From Sedimenticola thiotaurini (GTDB taxonomy: Bacteria > Pseudomonadota > Gammaproteobacteria > Chromatiales > Chromatiaceae): 64,000 bases of DNA. The position numbers and the translations under genes were made by a program. The stretch covers positions 2,170,001-2,234,000 of the forward strand of contig NZ_CP011412.1 in assembly GCF_001007875.1 (NCBI RefSeq), written 5' to 3'. The notes under the pieces were generated by a model. That model saw only the letters and a list, made by a program, of their open reading frames with translations. It searched no databases and was not told where the DNA came from. How positions within the stretch are numbered: position 1 is the first letter of the stretch; each line of letters begins with the position of its first letter. Below are positions 52,117 to 64,000 of the stretch, in pieces.

Positions 52117-52266
52117 TGATCGGGCAGTAGTTACCACAGTATTCGCACTGTTATAACAAAAAGGTATAGTTGTCGACTGCGTTGGCCGTGCACTGCGCGA
52201 CAGTCCCGACAATCGCATCACCGTAAGAACTTAAAACACAGTGGATTGAGGAGTGATCTTAGTAAA

Positions 52267-53412
52267 ATGAATATCAAAAAAAGCGTATCCACCCTGGCCA
52301 TCGGCGCACTACTGACCCTGGGGGCCGGGCAGGCTTCGGCGGCGGAGCCGATCCGTATTGGTACTTTTCTGTCGGTGACCGGGCCGGCATCGTTTCTGGG
52401 CGATCCGGAGCTGAAGACCCTGCAGATGTATATCGAGAACATCAACGCCAAGGGTGGTGTGGATGGTCGCCCGGTGGAGCTGGTGCACTACGACACCGGC
52501 GGTAATGCCAAGGAGGCGGTCAACTTCGCCAAGCGCCTGATCCAGAAGGACAAGGTGGATGTCATCGTGGGCGGTTCCACCTCCGGCTCCAGCCTCTCGG
52601 TGATGCCGCTGGTCGAGCGCGCCAAGATCCCCTTTATCTCCCTGGCCGGCTCCATCAAGATCATCGACCCGGTACAGAAGTGGACCTTCAAGACCCCCCA
52701 CACCGACCGCATGGCCGCCCAGAAGATCTACGAGGATATGCAGAAGCGCGGCATCACCAAGGTGGCCCTGATCAGCGGCAACGGCGGTTTTGGCAAGTCC
52801 GGCCGTGCCCAGAGCCTGGCCATGGCACCCAACTATGATATCGAGATCGTCGCCGACGAGCAGTACGGCGCCAAGGATACCGATATGACCGCCCAGCTCA
52901 CCAAGATCCGCGACACCGACGCCCAGGCGATCCTCAACTTCGGCTTCGGTTCCGGTCCGGCGATTGTCACCAAGAACGTGCGTCAGCTCGGCATCACCCT
53001 GCCGCTCTACCAGTCCCACGGCGTCGCCTCCAAGAAGTTCATCGAGCTGGCCGGTGACGCGGCCGAGGGCGTACGCCTGCCCGCCGCTGCACTGCTGGTG
53101 GCCGAGAAGCTGCCCCAGAGCGATCCCCAGCGGCCGGTACTGCTCGGTTACAAGAACCTCTACGAGGGCAAGTACGGTGATGTCTCCACCTTCGGCGGCC
53201 ACGCCTATGACGGCCTCATGATCGCCCTGGAGGCGATCGATCGCGCCGACTCCACCGACAAGGCCAAGGTGCGTGACGAGATCGAGAAGACCACCAACTT
53301 CCCCGGCACCGGCGGCGTGTTCACCATGAGTCCCACCGACCACCTGGGTCTGGGGCTGGACGCCTTCCAGATGCTGGAGATCAAAAACGGCGACTGGACC
53401 ATCGTCAACTGA
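52267..53412 (+). CDS. Branched-chain/aromatic-type ABC substrate-binding protein (LivJ-like)
   Basis: A 381-residue periplasmic binding protein of the HAAT family with signal peptide MNIKKSVSTLAIGALLTLG ending ASA-AEP. The mature part begins IRIGTFLSVTGPASFLGDP and has NAKGGVDGRPVELVHYDTGG and VIVGGSTSGSSLSVMP. Ligands of such proteins are branched-chain amino acids, amides, urea or aromatic acids. The adjacent phenylacetate-type genes favour an aromatic acid, but this is inference. ATG 52267 used; GAGGAG lies 12-17 bases upstream. Confidence 0.9.
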   Translation: MNIKKSVSTLAIGALLTLGAGQASAAEPIRIGTFLSVTGPASFLGDPELKTLQMYIENINAKGGVDGRPVELVHYDTGGNAKEAVNFAKRLIQKDKVDVIVGGSTSGSSLSVMPLVERAKIPFISLAGSIKIIDPVQKWTFKTPHTDRMAAQKIYEDMQKRGITKVALISGNGGFGKSGRAQSLAMAPNYDIEIVADEQYGAKDTDMTAQLTKIRDTDAQAILNFGFGSGPAIVTKNVRQLGITLPLYQSHGVASKKFIELAGDAAEGVRLPAAALLVAEKLPQSDPQRPVLLGYKNLYEGKYGDVSTFGGHAYDGLMIALEAIDRADSTDKAKVRDEIEKTTNFPGTGGVFTMSPTDHLGLGLDAFQMLEIKNGDWTIVN

Positions 53413-53422
53413 GTCCGGCGGG

Positions 53423-53443
53423 CGGCCCGGTGTGACCGGGCCG
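53423..53443 (+). terminator. GC-rich hairpin between livJ and livH
   Basis: CGGCCCGG-TGTGA-CCGGGCCG, an 8-bp perfect stem without a T-run, in the 161-base gap after the binding-protein gene. It probably stabilises the binding-protein mRNA or attenuates permease expression. Confidence 0.5.
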
Positions 53444-53573
53444 TCCACCGTCCGCCCGTGGCGGATGGGCCCGACACGCAACCCGTTCAAAAACCCGGGA
53501 GTAGCGCCACCTCACCGCCCTGTCAACCGGCAGCGGTACGGCTGGACAGCTTCCCCGACACAGGATTTCTCGG

Positions 53574-54455
53574 ATGTTCGATCAGATCCTCCAGTTTCTG
53601 CTTACCGGCATCACCGTCGGCTCCACCTATGCCCTGGTGGGACTCGGTTTTGCCATTATCTATAACGCCTCGGATGTGGTGAACTTCTCCCAGGGGGAGT
53701 TCGTCATGATCGGTGCCATGAGCGCGGTGGCGCTCTCTGCCGGCGACAGCGGTCTGCCCCTGTGGGCCGCCGCCCTCGGTGCGGTACTGATCACCACCCT
53801 GGTGGGTATGGCGCTGCAGCGCTTCGCCATCGCCCCGGCCCGGGGCGCCTCGGTGGTCACCACCATCATCATCACCATCGGCGCCTCCATCTTCCTGCGC
53901 GGCGTGGCCCTGCTGGTGTGGGGCAAGGATCTGTTCGCCCTGCCGCCGTTCTCCGGTGATGCACCGATCCAGGTCGGCAACGCCACCGTGCTGCCCCAGA
54001 GTCTCTGGGTCATGGGCGGTGCCGCCGTGCTGGTGTTCGGTGCCCAGCACTTCTTCACCCACACCACCCTGGGCAAGGCGATCCTCGCCTGCTCCTGCAA
54101 CAAGACCGCCGCCCACCTGGTGGGGATCAACGTCAGCATCATGCTGCTGGTCGCCTACGGCCTCTCCGCCGCCCTCGGCGCCATGGCCGGGATCCTGGTG
54201 GCACCGATCACCTTCGCCTCCTATGACACCGGTGTCATGCTCGGCCTGAAGGGCTTCTCCGCCGCCATCCTCGGCGGTATGGGCAACCCCATGGGGGCGG
54301 TCGCCGGTGGCCTGCTGCTGGGCCTGATCGAGTCCCTCTCCGCCGGCCTTATCTCGTCCGGTTACAAGGATGCGATCGGCTTTATCATCCTGCTGCTGGT
54401 GCTGTTCTTCCGCCCCAGCGGCCTGTTCGGCAAAGCGTCCGTGGAGCGGGTATAA
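53574..54455 (+). CDS. livH: Branched-chain-type ABC permease LivH
   Basis: A 293-residue permease with about eight helices. The start QFLLTGITVGSTYALVGLGFAIIYNASDVVNFSQGEFVM, residues ~7-45, is characteristic of LivH. It forms the channel with LivM, whose gene begins 2 bases after its stop. Confidence 0.92.
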   Translation: MFDQILQFLLTGITVGSTYALVGLGFAIIYNASDVVNFSQGEFVMIGAMSAVALSAGDSGLPLWAAALGAVLITTLVGMALQRFAIAPARGASVVTTIIITIGASIFLRGVALLVWGKDLFALPPFSGDAPIQVGNATVLPQSLWVMGGAAVLVFGAQHFFTHTTLGKAILACSCNKTAAHLVGINVSIMLLVAYGLSAALGAMAGILVAPITFASYDTGVMLGLKGFSAAILGGMGNPMGAVAGGLLLGLIESLSAGLISSGYKDAIGFIILLLVLFFRPSGLFGKASVERV

Positions 54456-54457
54456 CC

Positions 54458-55450
54458 ATGAAGCGCCTGAGCGGATTGTTTCTTCTGGCGGTGGCCATCG
54501 TGGTGCTGCCGATCATTTTTCCCGATAACTATTTTGTCACCGTGGTCGGCGTCTCGGCCGGGCTGCACGCCATCCTCGCCGTCAGCCTCAACCTGCTGAT
54601 GGGCTATGCCGGCCAGATCTCCCTGGGCCATGCCGCCTTCTTCGGCATCGGCGCCTACAGCTCGGCCATTCTGACCACCCGCTACGGCTGGAACCCCTGG
54701 CCGAGCCTGCTGGTCGGCCTCGCCTTCACCGGCACCCTGGCCTACATCGTGGCGCGCCCGATCCTCAAGCTCAAGGGCCACTACCTGGCCATGGCCACCC
54801 TGGGCCTGGGCATTATCGTGCACATCTTTATTGTCCAGCTCGGCTGGCTCACCGGCGGGCCGGATGGCCTGGGGGGTATCCCCACCCTCTCCCTGTTCGG
54901 CTGGACGGTGGACAGTGACGAGCGCTGGTATATGGTGATTGGCGGGTTGCTGCTGCTGGTGGTGTGGCTGGCGCTGAACATCATCGATTCCCGCAGCGGC
55001 CGCGCCCTGCGCGCCCTGCACGGCTCCGAGGTGGCGGCCGAGATGATGGGTATCAACACCGCCGCCACCAAGACCGGCGTGTTCGTGCTCGCCGCCCTGA
55101 TCGCCGCCCTGGCCGGCAGCGTGTTCGCCCACCAGCAGGCCTTTGTCAGTCCCGACTCGTTCAGCTTTGCCTTCTCCATCGAGCTGGTCACCATGGTGGT
55201 ACTGGGCGGCATGGCCTCCACCTACGGCGCCGTGCTCGGCGCCATTATCCTCACCTTCCTGCCCGAGCTGCTGGTGGTGTTCGAGGATTACGAGGTGATG
55301 ATCTTCGGCGCCATCCTGATGGGCATGATGATCTTCCTGCCCCAGGGCCTGTTCGTCGGCCTGCTGGAGCTGTTGCGCAAGCTCATCCGTCGCTCCCGGC
55401 CGGCCAACCTCTCTACTCCACAGAAGGAGGATCCCCATGGCGCTGCTTGA
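54458..55450 (+). CDS. livM: Branched-chain-type ABC permease LivM
   Basis: A 330-residue permease with LNLLMGYAGQISLGHAAFFGIGAY, the LivM hallmark, and ALRALHGSEVAAEMMGIN in the coupling loop. Its 3' end overlaps livG by 14 bases. Very GC-rich with strong G/C third positions. Confidence 0.92.
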   Translation: MKRLSGLFLLAVAIVVLPIIFPDNYFVTVVGVSAGLHAILAVSLNLLMGYAGQISLGHAAFFGIGAYSSAILTTRYGWNPWPSLLVGLAFTGTLAYIVARPILKLKGHYLAMATLGLGIIVHIFIVQLGWLTGGPDGLGGIPTLSLFGWTVDSDERWYMVIGGLLLLVVWLALNIIDSRSGRALRALHGSEVAAEMMGINTAATKTGVFVLAALIAALAGSVFAHQQAFVSPDSFSFAFSIELVTMVVLGGMASTYGAVLGAIILTFLPELLVVFEDYEVMIFGAILMGMMIFLPQGLFVGLLELLRKLIRRSRPANLSTPQKEDPHGAA

Positions 55451-56210
55451 GGTCCAGGATCTGACCATCTCCTTTGGCGGTGTGACCGCCATTGCCGATC
55501 TCCACTTCGAGGTCCCGGAGAGCCAGGTCTATGCGGTGATCGGTCCCAACGGGGCCGGCAAGACCACCCTGTTCAACATGCTCTCCGGCATCTACCGGCC
55601 CAACGAGGGGAGTATCCGTTTCCAGGGCCAGGAGATCGTCGGGCGCCGGCCCCACCAGGTGGCCCGGATGGGTATCTCCCGTACCTTCCAGAACCTGCAG
55701 ATGTTCTTCAACATGAGTGTGCTGGATAACGTCAAGGTGGGCTGTCATCTGCGCACCCACAGCCGGCTCTGGAGTGCCGCCCTGCGCCTGCCCAACATCC
55801 GCCGCGAGGAGCGCCAGGCCGAGGAGTGGGCCCGGGAGGCGCTGGTGTTCTGCGGCCTGGAGGCCTATATCGACCAGCCTGCCGATGCCCTCTCCTACGG
55901 GGTGTTGAAGCGGGTCGAGATCGCCCGCGCCCTGGCCGCCCGGCCCAGGCTGCTGCTGATGGACGAGCCGGCCGCCGGGCTCAACGATACCGAGACGGTG
56001 GAGATGCGCGAGCTGATCCGCCGCATCAGCCAGACCGGGGTCAGCGTGCTGCTGGTGGAGCACAACATGGGGCTGGTGATGCAGGTCTCCGACCGCATCC
56101 TGGTGATCGATTATGGCAGTCGCCTGGCCGAGGGGCTGCCGCAGGAGATACAGAACAACCCGAAGGTGATCGAGGCCTATCTGGGTGGGGAGGTGCAGTA
56201 TGCCGTCTGA
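55437..56210 (+). CDS. livG: Branched-chain-type ABC ATPase LivG
   Basis: A 257-residue ATPase with Walker A GPNGAGKTTLFNMLSG, GISRTFQNLQMF, a slightly unusual signature LSYGVLKRVEIARALA, and Walker B LLLMDEPAAGLND. AAGGAGG precedes the ATG inside the end of livM. It pairs with LivF. Confidence 0.93.
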   Translation: MALLEVQDLTISFGGVTAIADLHFEVPESQVYAVIGPNGAGKTTLFNMLSGIYRPNEGSIRFQGQEIVGRRPHQVARMGISRTFQNLQMFFNMSVLDNVKVGCHLRTHSRLWSAALRLPNIRREERQAEEWAREALVFCGLEAYIDQPADALSYGVLKRVEIARALAARPRLLLMDEPAAGLNDTETVEMRELIRRISQTGVSVLLVEHNMGLVMQVSDRILVIDYGSRLAEGLPQEIQNNPKVIEAYLGGEVQYAV

Positions 56211-56922
56211 GGCCCTGTTACAGGTAACCGAACTGACCGCCCATTATGGACCGATCCAGGCCCTGCACGGCATCTCCCTGGAGGTGAAGCCGGGTGAGCT
56301 GGTGGCCATGGTGGGCGCCAACGGTGCCGGCAAGACCACCCTGCTGCACACCCTCTCCAACGTGCACAAGGCGAGTGGTGGCAGCGTGATCTTTGATGGG
56401 CAGGAGATCACCCGCACCGCGCCGCACAAGATCGTCCAGGCCGGTATCTGTCATATCCCCGAGGGGCGTCAGGTGTTCGCGCCGCTGAGTGTGGAGGATA
56501 ACCTGCTGCTGGGCAGTTTTACCCGGCGCAAGGAGAAGGCCTGGGTGGCCGAAGAGCTGGAGCGGATCTACCAGCTGTTCCCGATCCTGCAGGAGAAGCG
56601 CCGCCAGGCGGCCGGTACCCTGTCGGGGGGGCAGCAGCAGATGCTGGCCATGGGCCGGGCGCTGCTGGGCCGGCCCAAGCTGCTGTTGCTCGATGAGCCC
56701 TCCATGGGGCTGGCGCCGCTGCTGGTGGCGGAGATCTTCCGGGTGGTGCGCGAGCTCAACGAGCAGGGCGTGACCATCCTGCTGGTGGAGCAGAACGCCA
56801 AGGCGGCGCTCGGCATCGCCGATCGCGGCTATGTGCTGGAGACCGGCCGGGTGGTACTGAGTGCCGCTGCCGACGAACTGCTGGCCGATGAGGCGGTGCA
56901 GAAGGCCTACCTGGGCCACTGA
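56200..56922 (+). CDS. livF: Branched-chain-type ABC ATPase LivF
   Basis: A 240-residue ATPase with GANGAGKTTLLHTLS, CHIPEGRQVF, signature LSGGQQQMLAMGRALL and LLLLDEPSMGLAPLLV. The ATG at 56200 overlaps the livG stop by 11 bases and has GGGGAGG before it. It completes the importer. Confidence 0.93.
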   Translation: MPSEALLQVTELTAHYGPIQALHGISLEVKPGELVAMVGANGAGKTTLLHTLSNVHKASGGSVIFDGQEITRTAPHKIVQAGICHIPEGRQVFAPLSVEDNLLLGSFTRRKEKAWVAEELERIYQLFPILQEKRRQAAGTLSGGQQQMLAMGRALLGRPKLLLLDEPSMGLAPLLVAEIFRVVRELNEQGVTILLVEQNAKAALGIADRGYVLETGRVVLSAAADELLADEAVQKAYLGH

Positions 56923-56976
56923 TAAACGATGGCCCGGGCCAGCCGGGTGATTAACGAGACCGAGGTTGAAGACGCT

Positions 56977-57636
56977 ATGTATGTGGAACAGATCATGACC
57001 CGCGCCGTGGATACCGTGACGGCCGATATGAAGCTCAGCCATGCGGCCCAGGTGATGCGGGAGAAGAGCCGGCGTTATCTGCCGGTGGTGGATGACAAGA
57101 ACCACCTGGTGGGGCTGTTCAGCCAGAAGGAGCTGGATCGGGCCGAGCCCTCCGCCATCACCACCCTGTCGGTGGGCGAGGTGAACTATCTGACTGCCAA
57201 GATCACGGTCGGTGAGCTGATGGTGCGGGAGGTGATCACCTGCGCCCCCGATACCCTGGTGGAGGATGCGGGCCGGCTGATCCGGGACCGGCGCATCGGC
57301 AATCTGCCGGTGATCGACAACGGCGAGCTGGTCGGGGTGGTCAGTGAGACCGATATCCTGGACTTCTTCCTGGATGTGATGGGCTGCGGGATGGACAACG
57401 CCACCCGCATCGCGGTCAGCCTGCCCAACAAGGCCCGCGCCCTCGGCAGCCTGCTGCATGAGATCAACGACGCCGGCGGCTATATCGCCACCGTGGTGTC
57501 ACCTGTCTCCCAGATGAGCAGCCCCAAACGGGTCGCCATCGTGCGCTATACCGCTGAACAGCCGCAGCAGGTCGATGAGACTCTGCGTCAGCAGGGTTAC
57601 GAGCTGATCAACGAGATACTCCCCCACAGCGATTAG
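56977..57636 (+). CDS. CBS-pair protein with C-terminal ACT-like domain (AcuB-like)
   Basis: A protein of 219 residues: two CBS domains (~1-58, MYVEQIMTRAVDTVTADM; and ~85-145, VREVITCAPDTLVEDAGRL) and a C-terminal ACT-like region (~150-205, IAVSLPNKARALGSLLHEINDAGGYI). CBS and ACT domains sense adenine nucleotides and amino acids or other small ligands. Placed last in the liv operon, it may gate the importer or couple it to energy state. Start ATG 56977 preferred by homology to AcuB-like starts; 56929 is an alternative. Confidence 0.82.
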   Translation: MYVEQIMTRAVDTVTADMKLSHAAQVMREKSRRYLPVVDDKNHLVGLFSQKELDRAEPSAITTLSVGEVNYLTAKITVGELMVREVITCAPDTLVEDAGRLIRDRRIGNLPVIDNGELVGVVSETDILDFFLDVMGCGMDNATRIAVSLPNKARALGSLLHEINDAGGYIATVVSPVSQMSSPKRVAIVRYTAEQPQQVDETLRQQGYELINEILPHSD

Positions 57637-57721: not shown

Positions 57722-58669
57722 GTGGCCAGCAATCCATTTCAACGACAGCTCAAATCCATCCTGGATGGGTTTCGCAATGAGCCCCCCAGTCGCACACCAT
57801 CTCTGGTCGCCACCCTGTTTGGTGACGTGGTGGAGTCCCACGACCGGGAGATCTGGCTGGGCAGTATCACCGCCCTGCTGGAACCCCTTGGCGTCAATGA
57901 ACGCCTGGTGCGCACCGCCATCTATCGCCTGGCCAAAGACGACTTTGTGGAGAGTACCAAAGTCGGACGCCGCAGCTACTACCGCCTGACCGACAGTGCC
58001 CGTAAAAAAGTGGGCGCCTATGACCGGCTGATCTACTACCCCTCAGAGAAACGCTGGGATGGGGACTGGATTCTGGTGTTTACCGGTACCCAGGGCATCA
58101 AGGCCAAGCAGCGGGCCAGGCTGCGTAAAGAGCTGACCTGGCTCGGCTATGGCATTATCGCGCCCAATGTCTACGGCCACCCCACTGCGCCCATCAGCCA
58201 GACCCAGGCGATGCTGGCCAGAATCGGCGTGACCAGTGAAGTGGTGGTAATGCGGGCACGCAACTATGATCCGATGTACGGACTGGGCACCAAGGGGATG
58301 GTACGCCAGTGTTTCAAGCTGGAGGAGCTGGAGAAGCAGTACAGTGCCTTCATCAAACACTACCGGGCCCTGGCCCGGGCCATGCAGAACCCCCGGCATA
58401 TCGAACAGGCGCAACCGGAACACTGTTTCATACTGCGCATCATGCTGATCCACCACTACCGGCGCATCCTGCTGAAGGATCCCAAGCTGCCACCAGAGCT
58501 ATTGCCGGACAACTGGCTCGGCAAGCAGGCCCAGGATCTCTGCGCCGCCATCTACCGTCCACTGGAACCGATCTCGGAGCAGCACATTCTCGCATTGTGT
58601 GAGAATCAGGCGGGACCGTTCCGGCAGATCTCATCCAGTTTCAGCCAGCGTTTCGCCGCCTGGGACTAG
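57722..58669 (+). CDS. paaX: Phenylacetate-pathway repressor PaaX
   Basis: A 315-residue PaaX-family regulator that, in E. coli, is released by phenylacetyl-CoA. The N-terminal winged helix is seen in TPSLVATLFGDVVESHDREIWLG (~20-42) and LVRTAIYRLAKDDFVESTKVGRRSYYRLT (~62-90), the middle domain in WDGDWILVFTG, and the C-terminus in FRQISSSFSQRFAAWD. Start is a GTG at 57722. It is the only regulator in the paa locus. Confidence 0.91.
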   Translation: MASNPFQRQLKSILDGFRNEPPSRTPSLVATLFGDVVESHDREIWLGSITALLEPLGVNERLVRTAIYRLAKDDFVESTKVGRRSYYRLTDSARKKVGAYDRLIYYPSEKRWDGDWILVFTGTQGIKAKQRARLRKELTWLGYGIIAPNVYGHPTAPISQTQAMLARIGVTSEVVVMRARNYDPMYGLGTKGMVRQCFKLEELEKQYSAFIKHYRALARAMQNPRHIEQAQPEHCFILRIMLIHHYRRILLKDPKLPPELLPDNWLGKQAQDLCAAIYRPLEPISEQHILALCENQAGPFRQISSSFSQRFAAWD

Positions 58670-58777: not shown

Positions 58778-59824
58778 TCAGGAGAGCAGGCGATCTGCCG
58801 ACGGGGTCTCGGGGGCCACCTGCTGCTCGAAAAAGCCCTCCGTGTGGATCTTGCTCTCCTTCGCCCCCAGGGCCTTGGCGGCAGCGATACAGGCCTCCAC
58901 AAACTCGGGACTGCCGGCCGCATAGACACTGTAATCGGAAAGATCCTGGAACATCTCCGGCAGAATCGCCGGTATCCGGCCCACCAGCCCCTCACCCTGT
59001 TCCCGGGTCAGGGTACGCACAAACTTGAAATTGCGGTGCTTCGCCTGCCACAGGGCGAGGCGGCCGGTGTCATAGAGATCCGCATCGGTGGGGGCCGAAA
59101 ACAGCACCGTCACCGGTTGCCGGTAACCCCGGCTCAGGGCCGCTTCGGCCAGCGCCATGATAGGTGCCAGCCCGGTGCCGGCCGCCAGGCAGAGTACCGG
59201 TGTCTCGGCTGCCGGATCGCCGATAAAGGTACCGTAGGGCCCGGACAGTTTGACCCGGTCGCCCACTTTCAGGCTGCCGTGCACCCAGTTACTGATAGCG
59301 CCGCCCTCCACCCGGGCGATCTGCAGGGTGATCTCGCCATCCGGCCGGGAGGCGTTGGCGATGGAGTAGGCCCGGGCCGGAACCCGGTTTTCCGGATGGT
59401 GCAGCTGTACATACTGGCCGGGCCAGTAACGCAGGGGTTTGCCCACCGGCCGTAGCCGCAGCTCCACAATACGATGGGTGCGCTCGATGCGCTCGACCAC
59501 CACGAAGGAGACATTCTCCCGGGGTGGGAACAGCTTGGGCTGGGCATCCTCGGTACCCCATTCGATCTCCAGCAGTTCCGACAGCGGCTTGGCCATACAC
59601 ATCAGGCCGAACCCCTGCTCCCGCTCTTCCGGGGCCAGGGCCATATCCAGCACCATACCCTGATCGAACTCCCCCGCCCGGACCTTGATCTTGCATTCGC
59701 CACAGGCGCCGGCCCGGCAGTTGTTAGGCAGTGCGTATCCCGCCTTCTCCAGCGCCGAGAGTACGGTCTCTCCCGGCTGGCACTCCACTTCATGGCCGGA
59801 TGGATATAGTCGGATCTTGTTCAT
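58778..59824 (-). CDS. NADH:acceptor reductase, N-terminal [2Fe-2S] ferredoxin plus FAD/NAD domains
   Basis: A 348-residue (from ATG 59824; 350 from TTG 59830) electron-transfer protein. The plant-type ferredoxin domain comes first: NNCRAGACGECK with the fourth Cys ~32 residues on in GLMCMAKP. Then an FAD domain (RAYSIANAS) and an NAD domain (LAAGTGLAPIMAL). This order is that of phenol hydroxylase and methane monooxygenase reductases; PaaE, the reductase of phenylacetyl-CoA epoxidase, has the ferredoxin at the C-terminus. It follows the diiron gene by 60 bases and most likely reduces that protein. Confidence 0.88.
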   Translation of the reverse strand: MNKIRLYPSGHEVECQPGETVLSALEKAGYALPNNCRAGACGECKIKVRAGEFDQGMVLDMALAPEEREQGFGLMCMAKPLSELLEIEWGTEDAQPKLFPPRENVSFVVVERIERTHRIVELRLRPVGKPLRYWPGQYVQLHHPENRVPARAYSIANASRPDGEITLQIARVEGGAISNWVHGSLKVGDRVKLSGPYGTFIGDPAAETPVLCLAAGTGLAPIMALAEAALSRGYRQPVTVLFSAPTDADLYDTGRLALWQAKHRNFKFVRTLTREQGEGLVGRIPAILPEMFQDLSDYSVYAAGSPEFVEACIAAAKALGAKESKIHTEGFFEQQVAPETPSADRLLS

Positions 59825-59846
59825 AGGCAAACCATAGAGATAGAAA

Positions 59847-59870
59847 ACCGGGAGGCAAAACCCTCCCGGT
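59847..59870 (-). terminator. Attenuating terminator between diiron and reductase genes (minus strand)
   Basis: ACCGGGAGG and CCTCCCGGT, 9-bp arms around a 6-base loop, followed on the minus strand by TTTTC. It lies within the 60-base gap and would lower reductase expression relative to the diiron protein. Confidence 0.7.
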
Positions 59871-59884
59871 AACAGGGAAAAGAA

Positions 59885-60910
59885 TCAGAATATCGGAATG
59901 ATCTCATCCATATCAACATCCAGTATCTCTTCGCCGGTGATTCCCACTTCAGGGATGGCGGGGAACGGGATATCGTAGCGATCCAGCACACCTTTCAGGT
60001 TCAGCATCGCCTTGCGCCAGTTCTCCAGTTTGTCCTCGGTGGCGGGAATGCCGAAACCGGCCTTGCGGGCGGTCTCCTCCGCCTGACGCTGCACGGCGAT
60101 GAAATCATCCGGCAGATCCCAGAACTCCATGGGGGGTTCGTACAGTACCGCTGAAAGGAACAGGTAGCCGGCCCGGATCTGCTTGGTGATGATGGACTTG
60201 TTCTCTTCCTGCAGTCCCGGGTAGTCACGCTCCATCAGGGCCATACAGATGGCCATGTGACGACCTTCGTCACGACCGATATTGCGGAACGCCTCCTGGA
60301 ACACCTCCTCTTCGCAGCTTTTCGCCATCTGGTGGAAAATGGTGGCGGCGGCGATTTCGCCCATCAGGAAGGAGCTGAACAGCACCGCCAGGCTGTACTT
60401 GGGTACCGCCTTCTTGTAGCCGTTCCAGTACCGCCCGCCATTGAAGTAGAGCCACTTGGCATTGCGTTGCAGCTTCCTGCCCAACTCGGTCTTCGGGGTG
60501 TAGGTGATGGGATCGGGGTGATCCAGCAGCTTGGTGATGGCCAGGCCACACATCTGCTCATGGTTCTGCTCATCCCGGGTCACCGAGAAGAAACAGCGTC
60601 GTACCGGATCCTCTTCGTGATCTTCGTAGGTCTTGATCATGGCTTCGGCAAATACCGGCGGCGCAGAGGCGTCGAATACCGACAGCAGGGTCCACCAGTA
60701 GGCGATCGACTCCCGCTCCTCCCAGCTGTACTGATCCGGATCAAAGGTGTCCCAGGGGAGTTTTTCCGGATCCCAGTATTCGCGCTGGGCGGCTTCCCAG
60801 ACCTCCTGCATCTTGGTGGTTTCACGCACCCAGCTCAGGGGATAGATATTGGGTTGGGGGGTCTCCGGCGGAAACTCCATGGTCTCCGCTAACCGCTCTT
60901 TTTCACTCAT
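59885..60910 (-). CDS. Ferritin-fold diiron protein, predicted oxygenase of the aromatic-CoA pathway
   Basis: A 341-residue acidic protein with two ferritin-type iron motifs: E114-x2-H117 (VTRDEQNHEQ) and E215-x2-H218 (IGRDEGRHMA), each preceded by a helix with a candidate carboxylate ligand (Glu89 in FAEAM, Glu185 in FLMGEIAAA). This is a carboxylate-bridged diiron pattern as in monooxygenases, N-oxygenases and RNR R2. It is too short for BoxB (~470 residues) and is not PaaA by sequence that I recall. Start ATG 60910 has CGAGGAG before it. It stands between paaZ and a dedicated reductase and behind the paa operator-like repeat. Substrate is inferred. Confidence 0.78.
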   Translation of the reverse strand: MSEKERLAETMEFPPETPQPNIYPLSWVRETTKMQEVWEAAQREYWDPEKLPWDTFDPDQYSWEERESIAYWWTLLSVFDASAPPVFAEAMIKTYEDHEEDPVRRCFFSVTRDEQNHEQMCGLAITKLLDHPDPITYTPKTELGRKLQRNAKWLYFNGGRYWNGYKKAVPKYSLAVLFSSFLMGEIAAATIFHQMAKSCEEEVFQEAFRNIGRDEGRHMAICMALMERDYPGLQEENKSIITKQIRAGYLFLSAVLYEPPMEFWDLPDDFIAVQRQAEETARKAGFGIPATEDKLENWRKAMLNLKGVLDRYDIPFPAIPEVGITGEEILDVDMDEIIPIF

Positions 60911-61017: not shown

Positions 61018-61056
61018 TGATACAAATATTTTTTTTATTTTTTTATTTTTGTATCA
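61018..61056. promoter_or_regulatory. Paa-locus operator candidate, site 1 (upstream of diiron gene)
   Basis: TGATACAAA (61018-61026) and TTTGTATCA (61048-61056), perfect 9-bp arms with a 21-base AT-rich spacer, 108 bases before the diiron start codon. Geometry and sequence are repeated at 63331-63369. PaaX is the obvious candidate ligand. Confidence 0.72.
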
Positions 61057-61140: not shown

Positions 61141-63162
61141 TCATACCATCTGCTGTTTCGCCACCAGGGTCAGTACGTCATAGGTGGCCACCAGATCCCC
61201 ATTCTGATTGCGCACCTGACAGTCCCAGCGCACCTCCCCGTAAGCCTCATTCACCCGGGGTACTTTCTGCTTGCAGGTAAAGGTCACCTGGATGGCATCA
61301 CCGGGATTGAGTGGAGTTAAAAAGCGCAGGTGTTCCAGACCATAGTTGGCCAGAACCGGCCCCGGAGCGGGATCGACAAACAGTCCGGCTGCCGCTGAAA
61401 CGATGAAATAGCCGTGTGCCACCCGGCCCTCGAAGAAGGGGTTCGCCTTGGCCGCCGCCTCGTCCATGTGGGCATAGAAACGATCCCCGCTGAAATCGGC
61501 GAAATGTTCAATATCTTCCAGTGTAATGACGCGCTGATCAGAGACGATACTTTCACCGATACGCAGCTCCTCCAGGCTCTTGCGGAACGGATGCACCGAA
61601 TCCTCGATGCGCCGGGCACCGGGAATCCACTTGTCGGTGACGGCGGTCAGAATACTGGGTGATCCCTGCAGTGCCACGCACTGCATATAGTGTAGTACAC
61701 CCCGGATACCGCCCATCTCCTGGCCACCGCCGGCGCGCCCGGGTCCGCCGTGGATCAGGTACGGCAGCGGCGAGCCGTGGCCGGTGGACTCCCGGGCACA
61801 GTCGCGGTTGGCGATCAGCATGCGGCCATGCCACGCACCCAGCCCCAGCACCATGGCCCGGGCGAAGTCATCATCATAGGTAAACACGGAACTGACCAGA
61901 CTGCCCTGCCCCATACCGGCCAGGGCAACCGCCTCATCCACGCCGTCGTAGGGCACCACGGTGCTGACCGGGCCAAACGCCTCGATGTCGTGCACTTCAC
62001 GATGCTGCAGCGGCTGATCACAATAGAGTAGCACCGGGTTCATGAAGGCACCCTCGCCGGCCGGCGTCTCGTTTGGATCGCCGTAGACGATCTCACAGCT
62101 TTTGGCCAACTCGCTGATGCGCCCCCGTACTTCATTGCACTGGTCACCACTGGCCAGGGCACCCATGGTGACACCCTCCTGATCCGGATCACCCACCACC
62201 ACCTTGGCCAAACGTGCCTTCAGGGCCTCGATCACCGCCGGGGCCAGTTGGCGTGGCACCAGGGCGCGCCGGATGGCGGTACACTTCTGTCCGCACTTCA
62301 CCGTCATCTCCCGAACCACCTCTTTGACGTAGAGATCAAACTCTTCCGTGCCCGGTTTGGCATCGGGCCCCAGAATAGAGGCGTTGAGGGAATCGGCCTC
62401 CATGGTGAAGCGTACCGAGTTATCCAGGATAGCCGGGTGGCGGCGCAACATCTGGCCGGTGGAGGCGGAGCCGGTGAAGGTGACCGCATCCTGGCAGGTG
62501 ACATGATCCAGCAGGTCACCCACGCTGCCACAGATCAGTTGCAACGAACCCTCCGGCAGGATACCTGATCCGATCATGTGCCGGACCATCAGTTCGGTCA
62601 GATAGGCGGTCTGGCTGGCCGGCTTGATAATACAGGGCACGCCGGCGATGAAACTGGGGGCCAGCTTCTCCAGCATACCCCAGCAGGGGAAGTTGAAGGC
62701 GTTGATATGGATCGCCACCCCTTCCAACGGCACATGGATATGTTGTCCGACAAAGGTACCTTTGCGGGACAGCATCTCCGGCTGACCATCGATATAGACG
62801 TGGCTGTTGGGCATCTCCCGCCGCCCCTTGCTGGAGTAAGCAAACAGGGTGCCGGTGCCGCCTTCGATATCGATCCAGGAGTCGGAACGGGTTGCGCCGG
62901 TGTGCCGGGAGAGTGCATAGAACTCCTCCTTGCGCTCCTGCAGATAGAGACCCAACTCCTTCAGTTTATAGGCGCGTTCATGAAAGGTCAGCGCCCGCAA
63001 CGCCGGTCCACCCACTTCCCGGCCGTAACGCAGCATGGCCTGGAAATCCACCCCCTGGCTGTCGATCTCCGCCACCGGCTCCCCGGTCACCGCGCTGTGC
63101 AACACAGTACCCTGCCCCGTCCCCTCTACCCATGCGCCACAGGCATAACTCTTCAAACGCAT
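61141..63162 (-). CDS. paaZ: Bifunctional aldehyde dehydrogenase/enoyl-CoA hydratase PaaZ
   Basis: A 673-residue fusion enzyme that opens the oxepin-CoA ring and oxidises the resulting aldehyde in phenylacetate degradation. The aldehyde dehydrogenase part (~1-520) has the catalytic Cys in [16 protein letters not shown] (~residue 292) and Glu in TMEADSLN. The MaoC-type hydratase part (~530-673) has the Asp/His pair in [13 protein letters not shown]. The first residues [14 protein letters not shown] are typical of PaaZ. Start ATG 63162 has GGAGGAG before it. Convergent gap to the diiron gene is 230 bases. Confidence 0.94.
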
Positions 63163-63515
63163 CGCTCGCTCCTCCGGCCCACCAGGGCCTGCTTTCATGC
63201 TGTTGGTTACTTGCTAAAAGTATGGACTGCCGGACCGCTCCGACCACCCCGACTGGGAAAGGGGCTATGCTGACGACAGCGGCTTGCAGTGCTACAGATG
63301 GCTGACCGGATAGTAGCCCGTCATCTAAAACGATACAATAAATTATCAATTATTTTATTTTTTGTAGCATTTTAAAACGGAGTTGTGTTAAAACAGGAAC
63401 CATCATTGGATCATCGCCCGGATACCCGCCCAAGACGGGTAACCCCTGATAAAAACCTTAAAAAACAGGGACAAATTATCCGACGCGATATCCACAGGTG
63501 AGGAGAGGAGATGAC
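63163..63515. other. Divergent promoter region paaZ/paaF
   Basis: About 350 bases between divergent start codons. It contains operator site 2 (63331-63369) in an AT-rich block. GGAGAGGAG at 63502-63510 is the ribosome binding site for the downstream gene. No small gene seen. Confidence 0.6.
63331..63369. promoter_or_regulatory. Paa-locus operator candidate, site 2 (between paaZ and paaF)
   Basis: CGATACAAT (63331-63339), 21-base spacer, TTTGTAGCA (63361-63369). Same 9-21-9 layout as site 1 with three arm differences. It lies 169 bases before paaZ and 147 before paaF and could control both. Confidence 0.68.
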
Positions 63516-64000
63516 ATGACAGCCTATTCGGACATCCTGCTGGATACGCCCCACAATGGCGTCCAACTGATACGGCTGAATCGGCCCGAGGCCCGTAATG
63601 CGTTGCGCAATACCCTGTTGGGTGAGCTGGCCGATGCGCTGCAAAACGCGGCCCGGGATGAGCAGATCAGGGCCGTGGTCATTACCGGATCGGATCAGGT
63701 ATTCGCCGCTGGTGCGGACATCAAGGAGATGGCGGCACTGGATGCGGTGGGACTCTGGAAAGATCCCCGTCCGACCTACTGGAAGGCTATCCGCACTTTT
63801 CCCAAACCCCTGATCGCCTCGGTCAACGGATACTGTCTCGGGGGTGGCATGGAGCTGGCCATGCACGCCGACATCATCATTGCCGGCGAAGATGCCCAAT
63901 TCGGCCAACCCGAGATCAACCTGGGCATCATCCCCGGCGCCGGCGGCACCCAGCGGTTGATACGGACGGTCGGCAAGGCGCTGGCCATGAGACTGGTCCT
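63516..64000 (+). CDS. paaF: Enoyl-CoA hydratase/isomerase, PaaF-like (3' end outside window)
   Basis: The first ~161 residues of a crotonase-fold enzyme, starting MTAYSDILLDTP and running off the window. Landmarks are IRLNRPEARNAL, GSDQVFAAGADIKEM for CoA binding and the oxyanion hole, and the two catalytic Glu in GGGMELAMHAD and GQPEINLGIIPGAGGTQRL. 2,3-Dehydroadipyl-CoA hydratase (PaaF) is the best guess because it is divergent from paaZ; a PaaG-type isomerase is possible. GGAGAGGAG precedes the start. Confidence 0.85.
   Translation, partial: MTAYSDILLDTPHNGVQLIRLNRPEARNALRNTLLGELADALQNAARDEQIRAVVITGSDQVFAAGADIKEMAALDAVGLWKDPRPTYWKAIRTFPKPLIASVNGYCLGGGMELAMHADIIIAGEDAQFGQPEINLGIIPGAGGTQRLIRTVGKALAMRLV

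Follow-up and report, generated by a model that had tools for sequence, protein, structure and literature searches.

Which enzyme epoxidises phenylacetyl-CoA in a bacterium whose paa cluster lacks PaaABCDE? This question is raised by the genome of Sedimenticola thiotaurini, from which a stretch of 64,000 nucleotides (the window) was analysed. An earlier note had observed that a diiron protein and a reductase stand where PaaABCDE is expected and had read this pair as an alternative, two-component oxygenase. The locus is organized as follows (coordinates in the window):

52246..57636, plus strand: branched-chain-type ABC transporter and CBS protein, proposed phenylacetate uptake
57722..58669, plus strand: paaX repressor (TIGR02277, 267 bits for a curated cut-off of 264.6)
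58778..59824, minus strand: reductase, proposed electron donor (N-terminal 2Fe-2S, then FAD and NAD domains, the MmoC/BenC order)
59885..60910, minus strand: R2/AurF-like diiron protein of 341 aa, proposed oxygenase component
61018..61056, no strand: palindrome that precedes the diiron gene, a proposed operator for PaaX
61141..63198, minus strand: paaZ, oxepin-CoA hydrolase / semialdehyde dehydrogenase (TIGR02278, 1033 bits for a cut-off of 563)
63331..63369, no strand: another copy of this palindrome, in the promoter shared by the divergent paaZ and paaF genes
63498..63998, plus strand: start of paaF, which continues past the window edge

A phenylacetate cluster without PaaABCDE

The paaX gene is oriented opposite to paaZ, the diiron gene and the reductase gene, all on the minus strand. 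The identities given earlier for paaZ and paaX hold when judged by the curated NCBIfam cut-offs. Downstream of the window, the cluster continues with paaF, paaG, paaH, paaJ, paaK, a second transporter, paaI, paaK2 (a second PaaK-like ligase) and the indolepyruvate ferredoxin oxidoreductase genes iorA and iorB; paaF, paaG, paaJ and paaK all score above curated cut-offs (427 for 345 in the case of paaG, 738 for 646 in that of paaK). The paa genes are flanked by a 5.3-kb direct repeat with 99.6% identity (52266-57600 and L001:8484-13818) that carries the branched-chain-type transporter and the CBS gene on both sides; recombination between its copies would remove the phenylacetate pathway.

A Pfam model search of the whole S. 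thiotaurini genome gives zero matches to the PaaA_PaaC family (PF05138), so that neither paaA nor paaC is found anywhere in it, one of the points on which the earlier note had made its proposal depend; no match to PaaB or PaaD is found within the paa cluster. As the other paa genes are present, the pathway is complete apart from the epoxidase. The genome of strain SIP-G1 is closed (chromosome of 3,928,944 bases, chromosome and plasmid of 3,962,284 bases) and the lack of PaaA and PaaC is therefore not an assembly gap; its announcement describes a strain without complete aromatic pathways (PMC4472907).

BoxB is ruled out as the missing epoxidase, as none is encoded in the S. thiotaurini genome, and the weak PF05138 matches (about 27 bits, 506 aa) of other Sedimenticola are BoxB proteins whose genes adjoin boxC. 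According to the abstract of a Sedimenticola study, paaABCD could reportedly not be detected in strains CUZ or NSS, and the lack of PaaA/C in this genus may already be known. In a review, Sedimenticola selenatireducens CUZ and strain NSS are described as degrading phenylacetate via aerobic pathways (PMC5748585) and PaaA and BoxB have been reported not to cross-react (PMC4498308); taken together, these data imply that another enzyme is needed.

The diiron protein and its reductase

The start of the diiron protein was placed at an ATG conserved among its relatives, which gives 341 aa. In the draft genome of Sedimenticola BM503, an internal TAG lies about 290 codons into the diiron gene (L012 / G017:C77:8203-9267), which may be a draft error or a sign of a decaying gene. 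The two ExxH motifs noticed earlier, E114xxH117 and E215xxH218, are borne out, and the residues that are invariant in the family down to 48% identity also include D80 and E185. These residues would make up a complete R2-type ligand set, D80 being a candidate first ligand from its spacing relative to E69/E102 of R2lox. Two ExxH motifs, acidic ligands and a four-helix bundle are the features that characterize the R2/AurF-like diiron superfamily, and all are found here.

Within this superfamily, the protein scores below the gathering cut-offs of AurF (PF11583, 21.4 bits for 29.6) and ribonucleotide reductase R2 (PF00268, 23.3 bits for 33.6) and just reaches that of the Pfam rubrerythrin model. 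COQ7, encapsulated ferritin and rubrerythrin were rejected as identities because their matches are weak and local only. Neither the protein sequence nor its profile retrieves a significant match from the PDB. An AlphaFold2 model built from 21 sequences (moderate pLDDT of 79.6, pTM of 0.82) has as its best fold matches the R2-like ligand-binding oxidase (Z 17.0), a type of protein known for its Mn/Fe cofactor and Tyr-Val crosslink, and VlmB (Z 16.9). Aldehyde-deformylating oxygenase is also among the matches, and a Sulfolobus phenylacetic-acid-degradation-like protein and methane monooxygenase score slightly lower (both 15.6); Foldseek alone gives an E of about 2e-3. Comparison of profiles with PaaA, PaaC and BoxB alignments reveals no similarity (hhalign probability of 0.4% for BoxB, whose profile consists of two sequences only). 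Fold matches without profile similarity indicate that the protein shares the common fold of the superfamily yet lies outside the PaaA and BoxB families.

In the reductase, FAD and NAD domains follow a 2Fe-2S domain with a CX4CX2C ligand set, in agreement with its earlier description as a ferredoxin-FAD-NAD reductase; the protein scores far under equivalog cut-offs (167 bits for 430 in the case of BenC). A scan of about 85,000 GTDB species returned 520 relatives of the diiron protein; at the loci of the best 80 of these, the reductase gene adjoins the diiron gene on the same strand within 300 bp in 77. The pair thus has the dedicated reductase, encoded alongside, that is expected of a two-component diiron oxygenase.

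Replacement, co-occurrence and proposed regulation

The relationship between the pair and PaaABCDE was examined among 93 related genomes, true PaaA/PaaC being defined as matches above 200 bits and true PaaZ as matches above 860 bits. PaaZ is encoded by 16 of them, the diiron protein by 12 and PaaA/PaaC by four. The 16 PaaZ genomes comprise 12 with the diiron protein only and four with PaaA/C only, none having both or neither, and none of the 93 has the diiron protein outside this set (Fisher's exact p = 0.0005 on the 16 PaaZ genomes, with relatedness ignored and 9 of the 12 diiron genomes belonging to one genus). The co-occurrence with paaZ in genomes lacking paaA, proposed earlier as a check, is thus observed. 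A same-family genome (G018) carries paaJHG, divergent paaZ-paaABCDE, then paaX; two others (G017 and G053) and the window carry paaJHG, divergent paaZ-diiron-reductase, then paaX. Within one family, the pair and paaABCDE hold the same slot directly after paaZ, which confirms the placement made in the earlier note.

In even samples, the diiron protein is rare (1 of 369 genomes in the class and 2 of 398 in the phylum, its own genome counted), and no relatives were found in viral contigs. Its relatives do not lie mostly away from paa genes, another outcome that had been considered damaging: among the best 80 of the 520, 64 loci include one or more of paaZ, paaN, paaG, paaK, paaX and paaABC within 10 kb. 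A layout conserved in hundreds of genomes is not due to chance. True PaaA and PaaC are nevertheless encoded by 28 of the 50 diiron-positive genomes that were checked and are lacking from 22. Among 82 Azospirillaceae, 29 have the diiron protein, including 24 with PaaA/C; five have PaaA/C alone and 48 neither. The plasmid pVF1 of Vitreoscilla filiformis encodes the diiron protein alongside PaaABCDE. A strict replacement of PaaABCDE everywhere is rejected in view of such frequent co-occurrence: the diiron protein accompanies the phenylacetate pathway, in which it takes the place of PaaABCDE in some genomes and occurs together with it in others. The earlier view of the pair as an alternative to PaaABCDE therefore stands as a replacement in the neighbourhood of Sedimenticola and fails in about half of the other genomes.

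Several loci depart from these layouts. Three Azospirillum genomes without true PaaA/C (Azospirillum isscasi L055, A. soli L063 and G1079) encode a divergent PaaA_PaaC-family protein (about 280 aa and 83 bits) beside paaX and the diiron pair. Some loci are isolated among housekeeping genes, a point against a phenylacetyl-CoA epoxidase; in Parazoarcus communis (L103:10001-12255), for instance, the pair has no paa genes beside it but pilin genes on one side and arginine biosynthesis genes on the other, and an FNR-type box lies 94 bp upstream. One Azospirillaceae genome (G1070) encodes the diiron family twice, with a copy of 708 bits and a divergent one of 448 bits (C11, C118).

Upstream of the S. 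thiotaurini diiron gene lies a perfect palindrome, TGATACAAA-N21-TTTGTATCA (61018-61056); its second copy (63331-63369) has three mismatches and the same 21-bp spacer. These are its only two matches in the 64 kb, and both are located at paa promoters. Of 79 loci, 53 carry the palindrome ahead of the diiron gene, and many of these have a TTGACA-like -35 bracketed by it; shuffled controls give no match. The obvious protein to bind the palindrome would be PaaX.

With no more than one mismatch allowed, FNR/Anr-type boxes precede the diiron gene in 19 of 79 loci, compared with 2.4 expected from dinucleotide shuffling. Their density is 0.80 per kb upstream of this gene and 0.038 per kb in the rest of the loci, and most lie 90 to 145 bp ahead of its start. 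They are commoner where PaaA/C are present (14 of 28 versus 3 of 22, p 0.008, uncorrected) and, mapped on the diiron protein tree, require about six changes, with at least three origins or losses. None was found upstream of the diiron gene of Sedimenticola itself. The co-occurrence with PaaABCDE and the FNR-like boxes point to a low-oxygen isoenzyme in the genomes concerned, which suggests such a role in Marinospirillum, Azoarcus relatives, Azohydromonas and Hydrogenophilus; we infer both FNR binding and oxygen affinity here.

Proposed function and known systems

The diiron-reductase pair is probably a two-component phenylacetyl-CoA 1,2-epoxidase that has no sequence relationship to PaaABCE. 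Gene context supports the earlier proposal of a phenylacetyl-CoA oxygenase, and from it we infer activity, substrate, product and electron route. The reaction could proceed as follows. The reductase would take electrons from NAD(P)H and deliver them, through its FAD and 2Fe-2S groups, to the diiron site, the diiron protein would activate O2 and epoxidise the ring of phenylacetyl-CoA, and PaaG and PaaZ would then form and open the oxepin as usual. The pair would be the sole epoxidase in Sedimenticola, some Azospirillum, Castellaniella, Azonexus and others, and a second epoxidase in many other genomes, probably a low-oxygen form where an FNR-type box precedes it.

The main rival reading is that the pair acts, in Sedimenticola as elsewhere, on another CoA ester of the same network, a substituted phenylacetyl-CoA or other arylacetyl-CoA. 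The presence of PaaA/C in 28 of the 50 genomes and in 24 of the 29 Azospirillaceae implies that a related substrate could be used, and the Sedimenticola cluster also contains iorAB and a second ligase. Moreover, a subfamily with about 50% identity, found with the same kind of reductase on Variovorax plasmids (L022, L023) and in Nonomuraea (L024), has different neighbours in Variovorax (other ligases, a thiolase, a hydratase, a transporter and a fused indolepyruvate ferredoxin oxidoreductase) and is a possible oxygenase for another arylacetyl-CoA. However, the swap is located at the very position of paaABCDE and the PaaA/C-free genomes keep PaaG, usually with PaaZ or PaaN and PaaK, so that they need a phenylacetyl-CoA epoxidase. 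The known substrate of PaaG is the epoxide, and PaaG scores above its curated cut-off in 21 of 24 diiron-positive genomes without true PaaA/C, the other three being two Bacteriovoracaceae and one Castellaniella draft. This rival is thus unlikely. Still less credible is an accessory role of the diiron protein, whether in removing peroxide or epoxide or as an oxidase akin to R2lox, with an unrecognised enzyme attacking the ring: R2lox is among its fold neighbours and the rubrerythrin model is just reached, but the diiron gene almost always has as its neighbour a gene for a dedicated reductase of the oxygenase type (2Fe-2S/FAD/NAD), and the inspected paa clusters of PaaABCDE-free genomes hold no other oxygenase candidate.

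A broader proposal can be made, which we hold with less assurance although we favour it: an undescribed family of single-subunit, two-component aryl-CoA epoxidases with the R2/AurF fold would be a second evolutionary solution to the epoxidation of phenylacetyl-CoA, controlled by FNR-type regulators and PaaX and working when oxygen is low, and would have replaced PaaABCDE in place in several lineages of microaerophilic and denitrifying bacteria. Such a pair would be much simpler than a four-protein complex for a hard dearomatising epoxidation, would offer a testable candidate for aerobic phenylacetate degradation by Sedimenticola and might explain, at the level of genes, how oxygenases can serve denitrifiers when oxygen is scarce. 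In the literature searched, to which the main Sedimenticola study does not belong, no described enzyme of this kind was found, the earlier note likewise naming no described system with this layout, and the replacement of PaaABCDE by the pair appears undescribed. In 2026, a study put PaaA and PaaC forward as markers by which the phenylacetate pathway can be robustly recognised (PMC13186573); more than 20 genomes have the rest of the pathway without PaaA/C and are missed by surveys that rely on these markers.

Compared with PaaABCE, the pair has the same place in the pathway and the same operon slot after paaZ. Both combine a diiron site with an NAD(P)H/FAD/2Fe-2S reductase, have PaaG and PaaZ acting downstream and have genes that share a PaaX-linked cluster with paaG and paaZ. 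However, no sequence relation is detectable, the pair has one diiron subunit and its reductase has the order 2Fe-2S-FAD-NAD whereas PaaE has FAD-NAD-2Fe-2S. The pair resembles BoxAB in having a single-subunit diiron epoxidase of aryl-CoA, as proposed here, and a separate reductase, but BoxA is a reductase with two 4Fe-4S clusters, unlike the 2Fe-2S/FAD/NAD reductase of the pair, and phenylacetyl-CoA is reportedly no substrate of BoxB (PMC4498308). The diiron protein shares with R2lox, AurF/VlmB and R2 a ferritin-like bundle with ExxH...E...ExxH ligands, but differs from them by its low identity (10-16%) and by its association with a reductase and paa genes. Lastly, its reductase has the same 2Fe-2S, FAD, NAD order as the MmoC/BenC-type reductases.
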